From NCBI GenBank assembly GCA_017462385.1, contig JAFTRE010000021.1, forward strand, positions 1 to 56,327: 56,327 nucleotides of DNA, written 5' to 3'. Under the pieces are notes generated by a model, which saw only the letters and a list, made by a program, of their open reading frames with translations, was not told the origin of the DNA and ran no database searches. The position numbers and the translations under genes are program-made. Source of the DNA: Clostridia bacterium. GTDB taxonomy: Bacteria > Bacillota > Clostridia > Oscillospirales > CAG-272. Shown here in pieces: positions 36,644-51,595 of the stretch (its first letter is position 1; each line of letters starts with the position of its first letter).

Positions 36644-37921
36644 TTAAGGCTTTTGTGAATACGCAATATTTGCGGCCTGAAGATACTCATTGCCCTTTTC
36701 AAGCGTTATTTTGGACCATGCCGAGGCGTTGCCGGCAAAGTTCACATTTGTCAGCGCCTCGCAACCGTAAAACGCGCTCACTCCAATGCTTTGGAGACTT
36801 TCCGGCAGATATATCACCGCCAGCGCCGAGCAGGACGAAAATGCATTTAAGCCTATTTTTTTAACATTCGCGGTGATCGTGACTCTGCTGAGCTGCTTAC
36901 AGCCGCTAAAGGCATAGTCAAATATCTCGCTTACCTTGCCCGATATCTCCACGCTTCTGACGTCAGAAACACCGCAAAACGCGTCTCCGATACGTTTGAC
37001 GCTCGACGGAATAACGACATTTGAAGCCGTTCCGTTGTATTTCAGCAGTATTCCGTCGCCGACAATGACAAATTCGTCTGTCTGCGCCGCCAACCATGCC
37101 GTTTCCTCAAACGCACTGCTGCCTATGTACGTCACATTTTTGCCTATGGTAACAGTATCCAGCCGCTCACAGCCGCGGAAAGCACTCTCACCGATGTATG
37201 TCACCTTGTTGCCTATTTCGATCACTGCCAGCGAGGTGCATTTTTCAAAAGCACCCGTAGGAAGCGTACTTATTCCGCCGAGATCGACTATACTCAAAGC
37301 GTCACAGTAGGAAAACGCGCCGTTTCCGATCACGCAGTCATTCTTCGGAAGCGTCAGCGTATTCAATGCGGAACATCCGTAAAACGCCTGATCTCCGATG
37401 CTCGTTACAGTGTCTGGAAGAGTTATAAACGCAAGCGAGCTGCACTGAGCAAACGCAGAGCTGCCTATGGAGGTCACCTTTTGCATGCCGTTGACCTCGC
37501 AGAGCACATTGCAGGAGTAAAAAGCCTCGTCGCCTATAGTGCGGACAGCGCCGCCGAGGTCGATGCGAACAAGAGAAGTACAGCCCGAAAAAGCTCTCGC
37601 ACCTATGGACTTGATATTACTGCCCATTTTCACATACGTGACCTGTGTCTGATCGCGAAAGGCATAGTCTCCGACGGCATTTACGGGATGGCCGTCGACG
37701 CGCTCGGGAATCGTCAGGTAACACGAGGAAATGTTCTCAACACCCACAATAGTAGCCGAACCGTTTTCGTATAGATCATAATAAAAGCCGTCGGAAGACA
37801 AAACTCCCTCCGAGACCGGCGCATAAACAGTGTTGTCATTAAGCATACCGCAGCCGCACAACAGCACAGCACATATCAGTGCCGACGAGCATAGCAGTAT
37901 TACAAGTTTTAATGTTTTCAT
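36644..37921 (-). CDS. BspA-like leucine-rich repeat lipoprotein (first copy)
   Basis: 425 residues. GGAG precedes the ATG at 37921; lipobox LLCGC. More than ten LRR_5 units follow (for example GARAFSGCTSLVRIDLGGAV, GSSAFAQCSSLAFITLPDTV, GDQAFYGCSALNTLTLPKND). Insert AAQTDEFVIVGDGILLKY matches its neighbour, so the two arose by duplication. It heads the six-gene operon and is preceded by a consensus promoter. Confidence 0.9.
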   Translation of the reverse strand: MKTLKLVILLCSSALICAVLLCGCGMLNDNTVYAPVSEGVLSSDGFYYDLYENGSATIVGVENISSCYLTIPERVDGHPVNAVGDYAFRDQTQVTYVKMGSNIKSIGARAFSGCTSLVRIDLGGAVRTIGDEAFYSCNVLCEVNGMQKVTSIGSSAFAQCSSLAFITLPDTVTSIGDQAFYGCSALNTLTLPKNDCVIGNGAFSYCDALSIVDLGGISTLPTGAFEKCTSLAVIEIGNKVTYIGESAFRGCERLDTVTIGKNVTYIGSSAFEETAWLAAQTDEFVIVGDGILLKYNGTASNVVIPSSVKRIGDAFCGVSDVRSVEISGKVSEIFDYAFSGCKQLSRVTITANVKKIGLNAFSSCSALAVIYLPESLQSIGVSAFYGCEALTNVNFAGNASAWSKITLEKGNEYLQAANIAYSQKP

Positions 37922-37955
37922 ACGCTCTCCGTTAAAGCAAATTATAGTTAATTTT

Positions 37956-37984
37956 ATGATATCACAATGCCCCCGATTTGTCAA
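37956..37984 (-). promoter_or_regulatory. Promoter of the LRR-SPFH-ATPase operon
   Basis: On the minus strand TTGACA (37984-37979), 17 bp, TATCAT (37961-37956), 35 bp before the first ATG. Confidence 0.8.
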
Positions 37985-38044
37985 GATATTTGTGCCGCTG
38001 TTATATAATATGTACATAAAAATAAAAGCCAAAACAGTATAAAA

Positions 38045-38080
38045 GCCCCGCGAAGCCTTAATAAAACGGCTTCGCGGGGC
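38045..38080 (-). terminator. Terminator after the 237-residue lipoprotein gene
   Basis: A 13-bp GC-rich stem GCCCCGCGAAGCC / GGCTTCGCGGGGC with a 10-base loop; TTTTAT on the minus side. Confidence 0.88.
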
Positions 38081-38098
38081 GAGCTTGTCGCTCCAAAA

Positions 38099-38812
38099 TT
38101 ATTTTATATACTTTTCAATAGCGGCATCCCACATATGAGAATATCCTATGTTAGTTGGGAATCCATTAGCAGCTATAATATTAGCATATTCATTCCAAGA
38201 TGAATAGTTTAGTGGAACCGTTCCTTGCGGTTTACTGCTGAAAATCAAATTCCCGTTATATTTATGACTCCCACGAAATATTTCGCGTGACGCAAATAAC
38301 AAATATTCACTGTCCGGCAATATCAATGTTTCATAACTGAATTTATCATTCAATGGCGTTGCGGCCAAAAATATCATCTTATTTTTATCATCTACAACAT
38401 ATTCGTTGGCAATCCACACATCGTCACCAACATAAATATCATACTCAAATGCATCCGATACATGATACAATTCAGTTACGGTAGCACCTGTCAGCATTAT
38501 ATACGGACTGGTATATTTGGATATCGCCTCGCTCTCCGTAGGCTCTCCACGATGCTTGTAAACCATCTTTTTAGATGTTTTTACTTTCATAATAACATGT
38601 GAATATAAATTATTAGTGTAATAATTATTCATCGATTCAAAGTCATTTGAAGTAAACCCCAGCATAACGGTAGTTACTTCGTATCCTTCGGGCTTGATTA
38701 TTCTAACATCATATCCGTGATAGCGATCAAATGTATTTCCAACCGAACCGCAGGACGACAGACTAAACAAAATACATATTGTTATTAATGTACAAATAAA
38801 TTTCAATTTCAT
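38099..38812 (-). CDS. Predicted lipoprotein, unknown function (AT-rich)
   Basis: 237 residues. The ATG at 38812 has GGGGA 8 bases upstream, inside the end of the metalloprotease gene; its stop is 5 bp away. Lipobox LSSC. The mature protein is Tyr-rich and has no recognised domain. Base composition is much more AT-rich than the genes to either side, and shared with the metalloprotease gene. Confidence 0.72.
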   Translation of the reverse strand: MKLKFICTLITICILFSLSSCGSVGNTFDRYHGYDVRIIKPEGYEVTTVMLGFTSNDFESMNNYYTNNLYSHVIMKVKTSKKMVYKHRGEPTESEAISKYTSPYIMLTGATVTELYHVSDAFEYDIYVGDDVWIANEYVVDDKNKMIFLAATPLNDKFSYETLILPDSEYLLFASREIFRGSHKYNGNLIFSSKPQGTVPLNYSSWNEYANIIAANGFPTNIGYSHMWDAAIEKYIK

Positions 38813-38817
38813 ATGAC

Positions 38818-41800
38818 CTATCCCCATTTTTGAATAATATTATGTTTGTCAAGCCATGACGGTGTGTATGTTCTGTTATTATCAAGTTCGGTTGATAGAT
38901 CATAATTCATTATAGATAGCATCGTAGTTTCATCAGGATACTCTCCCCCTGTTGTCTCTATATGTCTTAATGTTAACAGATGCCCCATCTCATGAGCAAC
39001 TACAGCCTTTTTTTTCCTATCAGACGAAAGACCGTTTATTCCTGCATTGTTTAACAACATCTCACATTTGGAAAAAACTACATCTGTATCATAATTGGCG
39101 ACTTCCCCCAACTCATATTTTGTTCCTAAAGGGGTATATATTTGAGCTCTGCCCATAATATCTTCCGATCCAAAATTATGCAAAAGAACATCGACATAAA
39201 CTATAATTTTCCCATCGGAAATAGCTTGTTGTGCGTCTTCATTATTAAATTCGTCCGACATATAAATGCTTATTTTGTTTGTAATACCATTCCACATTTT
39301 TACACCGTCTTCAATAAGAGTGCCCGAAAAAGCTCCGTCTGTAAGATCATTTATAATATATATTACTTCTTTACCCACGGCATAGTTAACTGGAATCAGT
39401 CGATAACAGTGATCATTTATTTCATCGGTATCGGCTATTTCGGAATTTAAAATCCAACCAGTTTGATACGATGACATTATAATTTCGTCATTTGATAATG
39501 AAATATATGTATTGCTACTGAAATTTTTAATATATGCATTACCGCCAGTTCCATAAAACTTCCACAATTTTGTATCACTTATGGATGTGTCTGATGAAAA
39601 TGCCAAAGAACCTGAAGAATATGTCAGCACTTGATTGTTTTCATTATAGTTGCTAATATTAGACATGCTGTAAATAAGGTATGTTTTTTCTGATTCCGAA
39701 TACTGTTTTATATACCATACAAAATTGCCGTAATCCGAATTAGTTTTATAAGATGTATCTGCAATTTTTTCCACATTCACATACGAACTATAAGAATATA
39801 TATAGTTATTTAGTGATGATGTAGCTTCAATAGTATATAATCCATCCTCTATAGTAATTGCCGAATCTACAACAGTCACCTGCTTACTTTCACTTATTCC
39901 CGTAGATTTATGTGTCGCAGTAATGGTAACCGAGCCTCCTGTAGAATACGATGTCAGCACTCCCGTTTCCGAAACTTCTATGATAGATGTATTTGAACTT
40001 GACCAAGTAAAATCCGAAGCATTTTTCAGTGTAGCAGTGGATGGCGTAGCTGTTATACCACAGGTTTGAGTTGAAAACGCATTCATTGATGAGGCACTTA
40101 TGGAAAAGTTCGTCAAATTAACAAACGAAGCGGTATCCAATGTACGCCACACACATTTATCATAGTCCGTACTCGTAGAGGAGGGGGTGGTAATTAAATC
40201 GACAGCAGTATTGGAAGATTGATGCAATACTTTATTTGATGCAACATTTTTGATTATCGTCCCGCCTGTTGCGGCAGATATTGTCCATTGATAGCTTGTT
40301 GTGAGCACGCTCGGCTTGGTTGCCATTCCTACGGTTGAACCGGTATAATACAGCAGCTTATTTTCATTGGCGGCAGATGCTATGGTATATTTATTATCTC
40401 CGATATAATTGACTACCCATTTTTGGTAAGTTGTGCCTGCGTATGTATTTGACGTCAAAGAATAGCTCGAATTGGTAGTCAAAAAATACCCGTATTCTTT
40501 ATTAAGCAAATAATACTCTCCGCCTTTATCGCCGTAATCAATGGTAATATATGTTTCGTGAGCCGGATTTTCTATAGTATCCAAATATAAATACTCCCCG
40601 TCTTCGGCCGCCCCCTCATTAGCATTTATCAAAATAAGGCCTTGACGTTGCAATGTGCTTGATCCATTGATCCAATACCCAACAATATTGGTTATATCAT
40701 ATGCGCATATACCGACAGTTCCTCCGGTCAACGTAGTTGTATCATATATTGATGAATTGTAATTGTCGAACTCCGTTGCCGTGCAATAGGCAACACTTCC
40801 GTCTGCCCAAGTTGAATTATATTGATATGCAGTAACCGTTGCATTATATTCTCCAACCTGCGTATATACATTAAGAGCTGCCGAGGAAAAATTATTTTCG
40901 TCAAGCGTTGATATAAATGAATTACTTACATATTCGCTGGTAAGTGCAAACAGCATACGTGTATTGCCATCCGACAATTCATATTCTGCGCCGACATTGA
41001 TCATATTTGTAGATATATAATCTGCCACTTCCGATTTTTCATATATACCTTTATCAATGATTATGCCCTCGGAATCCTCTGTAGCATCAAGATCATATTC
41101 ATATATAGTAGTAGTTGGGTCTATATATACAGGGTATGCGGTATTACTTGATGTCAGGAATTCGCTGTCAACGGTAACTGTGACAATATATTGCTGTGCA
41201 GCTTTTATTTCGCTTACGGAAATCGTTCCGACACTCATGTTGCCATTGCTGTCATAGCAAATAATATCACTCAAATATCCCAATTTTATATTCTTGTCCG
41301 TATCGGTAAGATAAACCGTGTTATCCTCTTTTATCAACGATACTCCGTTTGTTTGATATATAAAACGGAATTCACTTGTACCGGTATATGTATACAGTAT
41401 TATATCTTCTTTGACACCGGACAGTGTGGGGGTATATTGAAGACCCGTATTTGCTCCAAAAGCCCTATTATAGGATATGCGATTTGTATTTTTATTGTCG
41501 CTTATAGAAGTTGTTGTTGATAGCTGTGCGACAGTGTTTTCTATAAACTCGGTGGACATTATCTCTGCGTTTGACGGTGCATAATAAGGATAAAATTCAA
41601 TCGAATATGAATTAAAGTTCAATGCTACACCGTCACTTACACTGGCAGGATAATATGTTTTAATATTATTGTCTTCGGCCGCATAGGCATATTGGCTGTT
41701 TATAGCATTTGAAGCACTGATTGTTGTACTTTTGTCTTTTATATTTCCGGACTCATCAACATATTTTATAGGTGCAGAAAAAATATATGCCGTATTTTTT

Positions 41801-42051
41801 CCGTCTGCGTTTTCAAAGATAGCTGTGTTTAAATCAGATTCCAAATCATAACGCCTTGCAATATGTTGTTTTTCCGCAACAGAAGCATTTGAAATACTTT
41901 CCGGGATGTCCGACGATAACAGGGTCGCTGTGGATTGTGTTGCATTGTCAGCCGTTTCTGAAATGTTTTCACTGTCTGCCGCAGTAATACTTGGAATATA
42001 CATGCACAGCATTGCAATACAAAGCATTATGGCGATTATTTTCTTTTTCAT
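38818..42051 (-). CDS. Large secreted metzincin-like metalloprotease
   Basis: 1077 residues with a signal peptide (IIAIMLCIAMLCMYIPSITA). Domains in order are an N-terminal propeptide-like region; a DNRLRE-like beta domain (about 300-520); a ricin-type beta-trefoil (YYLLNKEYGYFLTTNSSYSL ... KWVVNYIGDNKYTIAS); a BIG2 Ig-like domain (WSSSNTSIIEVSETGVLTSY); a second trefoil-like region; and a C-terminal catalytic domain with HEMGHLLTLRH at about residue 1020 and a SIMNYD Met-turn. Metzincins have HExxHxxGxxH; here the Gly is Thr. The gene is AT-rich compared with its neighbours, a sign of transfer. Confidence 0.85.
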   Translation of the reverse strand: MKKKIIAIMLCIAMLCMYIPSITAADSENISETADNATQSTATLLSSDIPESISNASVAEKQHIARRYDLESDLNTAIFENADGKNTAYIFSAPIKYVDESGNIKDKSTTISASNAINSQYAYAAEDNNIKTYYPASVSDGVALNFNSYSIEFYPYYAPSNAEIMSTEFIENTVAQLSTTTSISDNKNTNRISYNRAFGANTGLQYTPTLSGVKEDIILYTYTGTSEFRFIYQTNGVSLIKEDNTVYLTDTDKNIKLGYLSDIICYDSNGNMSVGTISVSEIKAAQQYIVTVTVDSEFLTSSNTAYPVYIDPTTTIYEYDLDATEDSEGIIIDKGIYEKSEVADYISTNMINVGAEYELSDGNTRMLFALTSEYVSNSFISTLDENNFSSAALNVYTQVGEYNATVTAYQYNSTWADGSVAYCTATEFDNYNSSIYDTTTLTGGTVGICAYDITNIVGYWINGSSTLQRQGLILINANEGAAEDGEYLYLDTIENPAHETYITIDYGDKGGEYYLLNKEYGYFLTTNSSYSLTSNTYAGTTYQKWVVNYIGDNKYTIASAANENKLLYYTGSTVGMATKPSVLTTSYQWTISAATGGTIIKNVASNKVLHQSSNTAVDLITTPSSTSTDYDKCVWRTLDTASFVNLTNFSISASSMNAFSTQTCGITATPSTATLKNASDFTWSSSNTSIIEVSETGVLTSYSTGGSVTITATHKSTGISESKQVTVVDSAITIEDGLYTIEATSSLNNYIYSYSSYVNVEKIADTSYKTNSDYGNFVWYIKQYSESEKTYLIYSMSNISNYNENNQVLTYSSGSLAFSSDTSISDTKLWKFYGTGGNAYIKNFSSNTYISLSNDEIIMSSYQTGWILNSEIADTDEINDHCYRLIPVNYAVGKEVIYIINDLTDGAFSGTLIEDGVKMWNGITNKISIYMSDEFNNEDAQQAISDGKIIVYVDVLLHNFGSEDIMGRAQIYTPLGTKYELGEVANYDTDVVFSKCEMLLNNAGINGLSSDRKKKAVVAHEMGHLLTLRHIETTGGEYPDETTMLSIMNYDLSTELDNNRTYTPSWLDKHNIIQKWG

Positions 42052-42133: not shown

Positions 42134-42162
42134 ATTTTAACATCATTTTAAGCAGTTGTCAA
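42134..42162 (-). promoter_or_regulatory. Promoter of the metalloprotease gene
   Basis: On the minus strand TTGACA (42162-42157), 17 bp, TAAAAT (42139-42134). The TTGACA overlaps the stop of the 10-codon frame at 42159-42191. Confidence 0.75.
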
Positions 42163-42191
42163 CCGAATTGCGCAGAGTCTTCAATTGTCAT
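42159..42191 (-). other. Ten-codon open frame with a strong ribosome site
   Basis: AAAGAGGTGAG, then ATG, encodes MTIEDSAQFG and a TGA. It lies 41 bases after the terminator of the leader RNA, where a regulated gene would be expected. It may be the remnant of a lost gene; the ribosome site is very good for such a short frame. Confidence 0.45.
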
Positions 42192-42231: not shown

Positions 42232-42357
42232 AAAAAAAGCATAATGCGACCTTTGTGCATTATGCGTTTATTTTTCACGATGATGTCGGTGGCAGTCGAA
42301 AGACAATAAACGCACGGGAGCATATTTGTGTGTTTGTCGCCGGGAGCTACCTCTTTA
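42232..42357 (-). ncRNA. Conserved leader-like RNA, copy 1 (candidate riboswitch, attenuator or sRNA)
   Basis: The transcript predicted from the promoter at 42363-42391 is about 125 nt and ends in the hairpin GCATAATGC / GCATTATGC (42257-42265 and 42239-42247) plus seven T. A 10-bp stem pairs 42305-42314 with 42263-42272 and shares three bases with the terminator stem. The strand 42303-42313 can instead pair with an upstream A/C-rich stretch (42328-42335). About nine tenths of bases match copy 2 at 49800-49925. No known RNA family is recognised. Confidence 0.68.
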
Positions 42358-42362
42358 ACATC

Positions 42363-42391
42363 ATTATACAATACTATTTTGATAATGTCAA
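42363..42391 (-). promoter_or_regulatory. Promoter of leader RNA copy 1
   Basis: On the minus strand TTGACA (42391-42386), exactly 17 bp, TATAAT (42368-42363). Upstream (42392-42474) is AT-rich sequence with no feature seen. Confidence 0.85.
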
Positions 42392-48767: not shown

Positions 48768-49766
48768 TTATTCTTCAATATACCATAACCGCTCGTACAG
48801 CCCAAGCTGTTGGTAAGAAGTACATACATGAGGATTGGAAGCGTCGGGAAACCCGCTTAAGAATGAACTGCCACGTAAATCATCACCGATGTTTGCACCT
48901 ATCCAACGCCCCTCACTCTCCGAGGCGGAAAGCCAAATTGCATATTCATCATTGCTTTCACGTAACTGAGCTATATTATTTACCGTTCCGGATACAGCAA
49001 ACATTATATACCATTCCGAAAATCGTCTGGCGCGGTACAAATGATATTGCCAGCTTGAGTCATTTATATCGCCAATAATATCAAAGCCTTGCTCCTCAAA
49101 AAGCTTTATATATTTAGAAATTGCCTCATTGTTTTCATGAAAATACTGTTCTGCCTGAGCATGAATAAGCTGTTCTTCCAAATACAGTTTGCGGGCATAA
49201 AGCTCCAAATATTGCTCGTTCATCTCAATTTGTTTTTTGCCCATACCGCTGTCTCGCAATGCTTTTTCGAGATTGGATATTTGAACGTCCAATTTCCCGC
49301 TTTCCGCAGACCATTCGTTGATCGTTTTCCCTTGGTATACATAATTGAAATATGCACGGCTGACGGCGATGTTATCATAATCTTCGGGCAACGGCTCATA
49401 AACATACACAAGAAAATACATAGTTTCATTTGGCTCGGAGGTACTTACGAGCGCTTCTGCCAAGGGCGTCAGAGATGTTGTGCCAAGCACAGGCGGCATA
49501 TCCCACTTAAGTGGACAATAATTTTCGATCTGTTTATATTTGGTTTCGATCGGCGGCTGTGAGGGCTGGTCGATAGTCGTTTGCGATGAACTGTCTGTAG
49601 CCATACTGACCGTAGTGGTTTCAACAGTGTCAGGTGGCTCGGATGTGTTGATCGGCGTTGTAGAGTCCGAATTGTCATTTGCAGGGCTGTCCGTATGGCA
49701 ACCAAACAGCAGTGAAATAATCAGTATCAGGGTCAGCGGTATTTTTAAACGATTAATGTTTTTCAT
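48768..49766 (-). CDS. Predicted lipoprotein behind the leader RNA
   Basis: 332 residues. The ATG at 49766 follows AAGGAGG; lipobox LLFGC. A Ser/Thr-rich linker (STTPINTSEPPDTVETTTVS) leads to a charged helical domain (IEMNEQYLELYARKLYLEEQLIHAQAEQYFHENNEAISKYIKLFEEQG) and a C-terminal part with aromatic clusters (SSWQYHLYRARRFSEWYIMF). No domain recognised. Its expression is probably governed by the terminator 33 bases upstream of its start. It is AT-rich relative to many neighbours. Confidence 0.78.
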   Translation of the reverse strand: MKNINRLKIPLTLILIISLLFGCHTDSPANDNSDSTTPINTSEPPDTVETTTVSMATDSSSQTTIDQPSQPPIETKYKQIENYCPLKWDMPPVLGTTSLTPLAEALVSTSEPNETMYFLVYVYEPLPEDYDNIAVSRAYFNYVYQGKTINEWSAESGKLDVQISNLEKALRDSGMGKKQIEMNEQYLELYARKLYLEEQLIHAQAEQYFHENNEAISKYIKLFEEQGFDIIGDINDSSWQYHLYRARRFSEWYIMFAVSGTVNNIAQLRESNDEYAIWLSASESEGRWIGANIGDDLRGSSFLSGFPDASNPHVCTSYQQLGLYERLWYIEE

Positions 49767-49799: not shown

Positions 49800-49925
49800 A
49801 AAAAAAGCATAATGCTGCCGTTTGTGCATTATGCGTTTACTTTCACGGTAATGTCGGGGGCAGTCGAAAGACAATAAACGCACGAAAGCATATTTGTGTG
49901 TTCGTCGCCGAGGGCTACCTCTATG
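49800..49925 (-). ncRNA. Conserved leader-like RNA, copy 2 (upstream of a lipoprotein gene)
   Basis: The predicted transcript of about 125 nt ends in GCATAATGC / GCATTATGC (49826-49834 and 49807-49815) and seven T at 49806-49800, 33 bases before the ATG of the lipoprotein gene. The inner 10-bp stem (49873-49882 with 49832-49841) is kept, with a U-A pair of copy 1 replaced by a U-G pair. The loop of the terminator differs while the stem is identical. This is the arrangement expected of a terminator-controlled regulatory leader. Confidence 0.72.
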
Positions 49926-49930
49926 GTTTT

Positions 49931-49959
49931 ATTATACGACACTGCCTTCAAAATGTCAA
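49931..49959 (-). promoter_or_regulatory. Promoter of leader RNA copy 2
   Basis: On the minus strand TTGACA (49959-49954), 17 bp, TATAAT (49936-49931). The 17-bp spacer sequence differs from copy 1, so the promoter boxes themselves are what is kept. Confidence 0.86.
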
Positions 49960-50192: not shown

Positions 50193-50804
50193 ATGAAAAC
50201 AAAGCACACCCAAAACATTCGCCGTATGGTCTCAATGGCAATACTGATTGCTATTGTCATCATTTTGCAAGCTGCAATTGCAATTCCGCTCGGCCCGTTT
50301 ACCATCACACTAACATTGGTACCTATCATTATTGGCGCTATCATTTACGGCCCTGTGGCAGGCGCAATTCTGGGAGGCATATTCGGAATTGTAGTCTGTA
50401 TTCAAGTAGTCACCGGTGCCGCAGGTCTATATTCTTTCATGATGTTTGAATACAGCCCCGTACTCACATTGGCAATATGCATTATCAAGGGTGCCGCAGC
50501 CGGTTTGGTATCAGGACTTATTTATAAGTTGTTAGCCGCAAAGCAACATAACAAATTAGGTGTTATTTTGTCTGCCATTGCTTGCCCTATTGTCAACACC
50601 GCCATATTTGCCATTGCGCTTCTTGCTTTTTACGGAAATCTTACAACCACTTGGGCTATGGAAAATTCCTACGCATCCGTTTTCACATTTATCATAATGT
50701 TTATGATAGGCTTGAATTTTGTGGTTGAGTTCGCAATAAATGTTTTGCTCATACCCGCAGTTCTCACCATAATCAAGGCTGTCAAGCGCCAAATATCAAG
50801 ATGA
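50193..50804 (+). CDS. ECF transporter S component, probably for pantothenate
   Basis: 203 residues after AGGAGG. Six hydrophobic segments are visible (MAILIAIVIILQAAIAIPLG, IIIGAIIYGPVAGAILGGIFGIVV and so on), with the S-component pattern near the N-terminus. ECF S components bind a vitamin and share an energising EcfAAT module encoded elsewhere. The stop overlaps the coaX start, so pantothenate uptake (PanT) is the likely role. This substrate call rests on context. Confidence 0.82.
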   Translation: MKTKHTQNIRRMVSMAILIAIVIILQAAIAIPLGPFTITLTLVPIIIGAIIYGPVAGAILGGIFGIVVCIQVVTGAAGLYSFMMFEYSPVLTLAICIIKGAAAGLVSGLIYKLLAAKQHNKLGVILSAIACPIVNTAIFAIALLAFYGNLTTTWAMENSYASVFTFIIMFMIGLNFVVEFAINVLLIPAVLTIIKAVKRQISR

Positions 50805-51595
50805 AAAATATAATTCTCACAATAGATTGCGGCAACACGCACACCACTCTCGGCTGTGTTGACTGTGACAAAAACGTCACCGCCGTCTGCCGCATACCTA
50901 CCGACCGCGTCGACACCGAATTCGGCTACGCGGCAAAAATAAAACAAATACTTGACCTGAAAAATATCGCCCTCGACAGCATCGAGGGCGCGGTCATTTC
51001 CTGCGTTGTCCCGCCTGTGACCGACGTGCTCGCGCGCGCCGTCAAGCTGATAACCGGGCATGACGCGCTGGTCATCGGCGCGGGCATCAAAACGGGGCTT
51101 CACATCTGCATCAACGATCCCGGCACCGTCGCCTCCGACCTTGTCGCCGCCGCAGTCGCGGCAAAGGAGCAATATCCTCTGCCCTGCATCATAATCGACA
51201 TGGGCACGGCAACCACCGTCACCGCCGTTGACGAAAAAGCGCGCTTTATCGGCGGCGCTATCTTCCCCGGTGCAGGTATATCGCTCACCGCCCTCGCTCA
51301 CAACACGGCACTTCTGCCGCATATCGAAATACAGCCGCCGAGCAAGGTCGTCGCCACCAACACTGTCGACTGCATGCGCTCGGGCATAGTTTACGGCACT
51401 GCAGGTGCCGTTGACGGTATACTGGATCACTTCGCCGAGGAGCTCGGCGAGCCCGCCAGCATCGTTGCAACGGGCGGCATCAGCTCGCTTATCTGCCCCC
51501 ATTGCCGCCACAACATCACCCTTGACGACACATTATTGCTCAAGGGTCTGCGCTCCATTTGGGATAAAAATCAAAAAACATCCAAAGACCGCTGA
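50801..51595 (+). CDS. coaX: Type III pantothenate kinase
   Basis: 264 residues. The ATP-binding DCGNTHTTLG at the N-terminus, HDALVIGAGIKTGL, and DMGTATTVTAVDEKARFIGGAIFPG are typical CoaX motifs. The enzyme phosphorylates pantothenate in the first step of CoA synthesis, and needs a monovalent cation. The start overlaps the transporter stop (ATGA). The last 15 residues are a Lys-rich tail. Confidence 0.94.
   Translation: MKNIILTIDCGNTHTTLGCVDCDKNVTAVCRIPTDRVDTEFGYAAKIKQILDLKNIALDSIEGAVISCVVPPVTDVLARAVKLITGHDALVIGAGIKTGLHICINDPGTVASDLVAAAVAAKEQYPLPCIIIDMGTATTVTAVDEKARFIGGAIFPGAGISLTALAHNTALLPHIEIQPPSKVVATNTVDCMRSGIVYGTAGAVDGILDHFAEELGEPASIVATGGISSLICPHCRHNITLDDTLLLKGLRSIWDKNQKTSKDR

Follow-up and report, generated by a model that had tools for sequence, protein, structure and literature searches.

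The c-di-GMP regulon of Clostridioides difficile includes a secreted metalloprotease. According to passages of PMC6366702, the class I c-di-GMP riboswitches of C. difficile are off switches that terminate transcription. A rare candidate structured leader, the yjbM motif, is described in passages of PMC11109978 as having three representatives in one genus, and it was judged there by GC content, structure and nearness to the Shine-Dalgarno site. Leader-peptide and T-box attenuators, like the RNA analysed here, combine a terminator with a competing antiterminator.

Our analysis concerns a unit of promoter, RNA and terminator in a window of 56,327 nucleotides (the whole stretch of DNA analysed) from a Clostridia bacterium. 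Like the class I c-di-GMP riboswitches, the unit is a leader RNA with an intrinsic terminator. Unlike them, it gave no match to that family at the Rfam gathering score, nor did its first copy (copy 1) at E up to 10, and the class I core was not seen here. It has in common with the yjbM motif few copies, a narrow host range and a position near a gene start, while it differs in having an intrinsic terminator and in occurring as three paralogues within a single genome, with unrelated genes downstream. Unlike leader-peptide and T-box attenuators, it has no conserved start codon and no T-box match in Rfam. The original prediction recognised no known RNA family, and the scan of the window against Rfam 15 (cmscan) agrees, with no match at the gathering threshold; a scan of the 241 bases at and around copy 1, with hits admitted up to E 10, gave two sub-threshold matches (E 4 and 7.6), neither of them credible. 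A literature keyword search found no such element named. On paper the unit resembles a termination riboswitch, but to class it as one is not warranted, because it has no assigned ligand and no covariation and was found in one genome among those sampled.

Two copies of the unit lie on the minus strand of the window (copy 1, 42391-42232; copy 2, 49959-49800), each consisting of a TTGACA-17-TATAAT promoter, a predicted RNA of about 120 nt and an intrinsic terminator (Table 1). The perfect sigma-A promoter proposed for copy 1, whose strand had been left unstated, was confirmed on the minus strand, and the RNA does run into a terminator, the stem of which (GCATAATGC/GCATTATGC) is followed by seven T. 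Copy 2 had been put at about nine tenths identity to copy 1; the mean column identity is 90% in a wider alignment, and blastn gave 84% over 160 bases (E 1.5e-42), so the likeness is not due to chance. Searched with blastn, the window's own genome (1.76 Mb in 32 contigs, 83% complete) returned the query copy and two paralogues, one of which is a third copy outside the window (G000:C27:96227-96078, 86% over 149 bases, E 1.5e-42). Promoter, body and terminator are in register across all three copies. Perfect promoters by themselves are fairly common in this DNA, with five sites of 12/12 matches in 12.5 kb. A simple terminator scan with a loop limit of 8 reported the copy 1 site for the plus strand alone; the minus-strand terminators were missed because their loops of 9 and 10 exceed this limit, and their stems are taken from RNA folds, not from the simple scan. 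The copy 1 terminator looks bidirectional, as GCATAATGC...GCATTATGC on the plus strand (window 42239-42265) runs into GTTTATTTTT, and antisense transcription from the gene side could thus end there too.

Table 1. Positions of the features of copies 1 and 2 and of the genes that follow them in the window
Feature	Position	Strand	Remark
Copy 1 promoter, TTGACA-17-TATAAT	42363..42391	-	12/12 hexamer matches
Copy 1 RNA start	near 42356	-	presumed
Copy 1 5' domain (fold A), GGUAG/CUGCC around interrupted hairpin	42291..42351	-	RNAalifold consensus of 3 copies
Copy 1 putative switching strand, GUGCGUUUAUU	42305..42315	-	invariant in 3/3 copies
Copy 1 putative antiterminator 3' arm, AAUAAACGCAU	42262..42272	-	four bases shared with terminator 5' stem
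Copy 1 intrinsic terminator	42232..42265	-	stem 42265-42239, seven-T tract 42238-42232
10-codon ORF MTIEDSAQFG after copy 1	42159..42191	-	read from sequence
Promoter-like site TTGACA-17-TAAAAT between copy 1 and secreted-protein gene	42134..42162	-	11/12 matches
Copy 1 gene, 1077-aa protein	38818..42051	-	RicinB_lectin_2 and Big_2 domains, HExxHxxxxxH stretch
Row of exported-looking genes after copy 1 (by eye)	36644..42051	-	leucine-rich-repeat-like lipoprotein; 242-aa lipoprotein without Pfam family; 1077-aa lectin/Big_2 protein
Copy 2 promoter	49931..49959	-	12/12 hexamer matches
Copy 2 5' domain	49859..49919	-	
Copy 2 putative switching strand	49873..49883	-	
Copy 2 putative antiterminator 3' arm	49831..49841	-	one A to G change, U-A becomes U-G
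Copy 2 intrinsic terminator	49800..49834	-	stem 49834-49807, T tract 49806-49800
Copy 2 gene, lipoprotein-like	48768..49766	-	LLFGC, by eye

In the alignment of the three copies (gap-only columns were not scored as variable), none of the 12 columns of the promoter hexamers was variable, while 14 of the 17 spacer columns were. Between the -10 box and GGTAG 8/11 columns varied; within the unit the counts were then 7/64 for the 5' domain, 5/18 for the linker, 3/35 for the antiterminator arm and terminator and 1/7 for the T tract, followed by six variable columns among the 17 beyond. The upstream flanks are far more variable than the RNA body (22/28 versus 15/117 columns, P-value = 3e-11, Fisher test), and any two copies have 7-14 differences in the 17 spacer positions and 4-5 in the 61 of the 5' domain. 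One constant stretch spans 26 successive invariant columns (alignment columns 42-67, CGUGCGUUUAUUGUCUUUCGACUGCC). Because the spacer drifts while the hexamers and the RNA body stay nearly fixed, the sequences suggest that the RNA is probably under selection; the copies are not simply recent duplicates, since adjacent bases have drifted far and the RNA has not. Selection on both boxes and stems had been proposed, and the part about conservation stood: besides the hexamers, the paired columns of fold A and the terminator are less variable than the unpaired ones (2/58 versus 13/59, P-value = 0.004), although for the antiterminator helix alone the difference is not significant (1/22 versus 14/95, P-value = 0.30). 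The part about stems was weakened by the lack of compensatory changes among the three copies (0/29 and 0/11 pairs changed on both sides), the stems being invariant rather than covarying. With just three sequences, which also served to derive the structure, stem conservation supports the stems and does not prove them.

The consensus fold consists of GGUAG/CUGCC enclosing a long interrupted hairpin, followed by the terminator. The two competing pairings of one strand that had been proposed both exist on paper: 42305-42315 can pair with 42262-42272 (11 pairs) or, within the 5' domain, with 42328-42335, so that GUGCGUUUAUU may serve as the 3' arm of the fold A hairpin or as the 5' arm of a putative antiterminator. 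The former of these pairings does share bases with the terminator, namely the four at 42262-42265. The 11-pair helix of GUGCGUUUAUU and AAUAAACGCAU is possible in 3/3 copies, and its duplex strength was matched by 3, 6 and 3 of 2000 dinucleotide shuffles of the upstream RNA for copies 1, 2 and 3, which are not independent of each other. Folding of partial transcripts predicted fold A at 64-88 nt, the antiterminator at 92-112 nt and the complete terminator from 116 nt on in copy 1, and the same succession at 68-88, 96-112 and from 120 nt on in copy 3, with antiterminator probabilities of 0.77-0.99 at those lengths in both. Copy 2 behaved less clearly: the antiterminator reached 0.63 at 92 nt and at most 0.21 at other lengths, the inner hairpin of fold A formed instead at 108-112 nt (0.98-0.99), the outer fold A helix never exceeded 0.31, and the minimum-energy fold is not fold A. 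The whole RNA is unusually stable compared with shuffles in copy 1 (z = -3.0, 1/200) and not clearly unusual in copy 2 (z = -1.5, 14/200), and the stability of the 5' domain by itself is modest (equalled by 75, 85 and 55 of 1000 shuffles in copies 1, 2 and 3). In the full-length RNA, forcing the antiterminator costs 5-12 kcal/mol of stability relative to the terminated fold (the copy 3 energy was computed on a region starting 10 bases early, as GGTAG occurs twice), so the unit would be off at equilibrium and read-through would have to be kinetic or helped; in copy 3, a shortened terminator still forms alongside the forced antiterminator. The extent to which upstream RNA covers the terminator foot does not stand out (equalled by 145, 204 and 42 of 500 shuffles in copies 1, 2 and 3). 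Since A-rich AAATAAACGC-like flanks also occur upstream of other terminators in the same bacterial family, part of the antiterminator arm may be an ordinary terminator flank. Judged by these modelled folds, a switch between fold A and the antiterminator is plausible and falls short of being established.

In copies 2 and 3, promoter, leader and intrinsic terminator immediately precede a gene of the same orientation; in copy 1 they do so less directly. The distance from T tract to ATG, 33 nt for copy 2 and 32 nt for copy 3, leaves little room for a second promoter, and the two copies are alike past the terminator as far as the Shine-Dalgarno site. Both genes are lipoprotein-like and matched no Pfam family at E 0.01; beyond their own genome, weak partial matches were found in 2/59 genomes for the copy 2 gene and in 0/59 for the copy 3 gene. 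Copy 1 sits between an NAD synthase gene and the gene of the 1077-aa protein, whose N terminus looks like a signal peptide by eye. No peptidase family was matched in this protein; its HExxHxxxxxH stretch is metzincin-like and may be a zinc-protease motif. Control of this gene by copy 1 is less sure because two features intervene: a second promoter-like site and a 10-codon ORF, the latter at about the position of the lipoprotein start in the other two copies. The downstream products look exported in 3/3 copies, as judged by eye, for which we estimate a chance of about 1 in 100 if one fifth of genes are exported.

To describe the distribution of the unit, covariance models with (R1) and without the terminator (R2) were searched against sampled genomes; the draws overlap and include the window's own genome, stricter filters were applied, and the best 9 or 11 candidates per genome were scored. 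With R1, no strong match was obtained in a second genome among the sampled 395 genomes of the family, 394 of the order and 391 of the class (order and class searches were evaluated at E up to 1e-4 only), and R2 gave strong matches in the own genome only among the 395 family genomes. At E up to 0.1, 28/395 family genomes were matched by R1, the own included, and the best outside match scored 33.4 bits versus 144-149 for the three copies; nine of these loci were rescored, and the five alignments inspected consist mostly of a terminator and an A-rich flank. At E up to 1, R2 matched 71/395 genomes (best outside match 32.1 bits versus 106-112 for the three copies), and of eight loci considered (six alignments and eight surroundings) six were coding-like by eye without an ORF call and two were unrelated terminators. 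In one genome of the same family (G360), an unrelated terminator hairpin is followed by a TTGACA/TATAAT-like promoter and a lipoprotein-like gene (L074:1501-1571, minus strand, onward).

In a blastn search of 196 family genomes, only two short matches were found outside the own genome, one of 29 promoter bases (genome G147, E 4.8e-4) and one of 28 bases in the 5' UTR of a lipoprotein-like gene (genome G013, E 9.5e-4). The latter, in another genus (L005:1500-1545), covers bases of the linker and the antiterminator arm at 89% right after a strong promoter, and the gene behind it is short, Ala/Thr-rich and lipoprotein-like. It was rejected as a homologue: 8/49 relatives were matched at E up to 0.01, mostly at promoter bases, and the likeness is probably due to chance. 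The two other genomes of the genus gave blastn matches of E 0.26 or worse and no strong R1 match; searches for the NAD synthase and ECF genes that flank the copies had no hit in them at E 1e-30 and 1e-20, so neither an empty site nor synteny could be read there. An exact 18-base core pattern hit two stretches in genome_contigs and two in viral_contigs, none with the remaining element, an 18-base 5' pattern hit two viral stretches that the covariance model did not match, and a 19-base 3' pattern hit none. Plasmids and phages gave no match at E up to 1. The many hits with compensatory changes that the original prediction hoped for from a covariance search were thus not obtained. It had also named hits in one genome with no conserved structure as speaking against the RNA; the first half of this was found among the sampled genomes, and for the second the copies offer no compensatory evidence. 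What stands of the candidate regulatory RNA is the probable selection, the absence of an Rfam family and the exported-looking genes at all three copies; its occurrence in one genome and the missing compensatory changes tell against it.

We give about an even chance to the reading that the unit is a lineage-restricted cis-acting transcription attenuator, duplicated with its promoter and controlling genes of exported proteins. The promoter would start an RNA in which the 61-64 nt from GGUAG to CUGCC form a two-part hairpin (fold A); while a further 30 nt are being made, GUGCGUUUAUU would leave fold A and pair with AAUAAACGCAU, covering the foot of the terminator stem. Should a ligand or protein hold fold A, or the terminator be completed first, transcription would stop before the Shine-Dalgarno site, while a persisting antiterminator would let RNA polymerase continue into the gene; the RNA would have to be made, its pairings to switch in the cell and the control to run in this direction. 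A further step, that the unit is a new lineage-confined riboswitch-like sensor which coordinates a small regulon of secreted enzymes and exported, lineage-specific lipoproteins through this switching, appears rather doubtful. Copy 1 keeps the RNA despite the neighbouring gene's own promoter-like site, which counts against an attenuator and, together with the intervening 10-codon ORF, fits sibling trans-acting sRNAs, in which the terminator would be the normal 3' end, distant mRNAs would be paired and expression of the neighbours would be leakage. The long invariant stretch favours sRNAs as well, as the sequence itself and not pairing alone is conserved. Against them, the lipoprotein genes 32-33 nt past the T tract of copies 2 and 3 have little room for a promoter of their own, and the similarity of these two copies extends beyond the terminator to the Shine-Dalgarno site; we consider sRNAs unlikely.

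Scarcely better placed, and still rather unlikely, is a dispersed promoter cassette, in which promoter, leader, leaky terminator and ribosome-binding site would be copied before lineage-specific genes and sense nothing, the RNA bodies being alike through gene conversion or through constraint on a stable 5' UTR. Such a cassette would agree with strong matches confined to one genome among those sampled and with the near-orphan genes behind copies 2 and 3. However, conversion tracts would have to end near the RNA start in every pair, given how spacer and 5' domain differ, and a terminator placed between promoter and gene would be hard to understand unless it served control. Attenuation by ribosomes translating a leader peptide encoded in the RNA was also considered, since copies 2 and 3 have one frame that stays open along the body, with its TAA inside the terminator stem, and the 3-base insertion of copy 3 preserves it. 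But copy 3 has no ATG, GTG or TTG in frame after the promoter, and a 1-base insertion shifts the frame of copy 1 ahead of the TAA, and on these grounds the leader peptide was rejected as highly improbable. By eye, moreover, the ATG of copies 1 and 2 has no Shine-Dalgarno site before it, and the changes are about 4 silent versus 7 replacement; the 29-residue frame had no match in phages.

If the attenuator is real, it is a case of a structured control element that emerged and multiplied inside a single genome as a ready-made unit, promoter included, serving genes that are themselves lineage-specific. Narrowly distributed RNAs easily escape comparative searches in which many species are demanded, and comparing paralogues within one genome against freely drifting promoter spacers would be another route to them.

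Other genes beside the copies were also inspected. Copy 1 is followed by a row of exported-looking genes (Table 1). Divergent from copy 2 lies a gene for an ECF transporter S component, the next gene being type III pantothenate kinase-like by eye (window 50193-51595, plus strand), which suggests a pantothenate link. At copy 3, the gene after the lipoprotein gene is subtilase-like and split in two frames by a stop (L068:7441-9450, minus strand); its second piece matched Peptidase_S8 at E 4.6e-16 and its first at 0.013, and the split may reflect decay of the gene or a mistake in the assembly.
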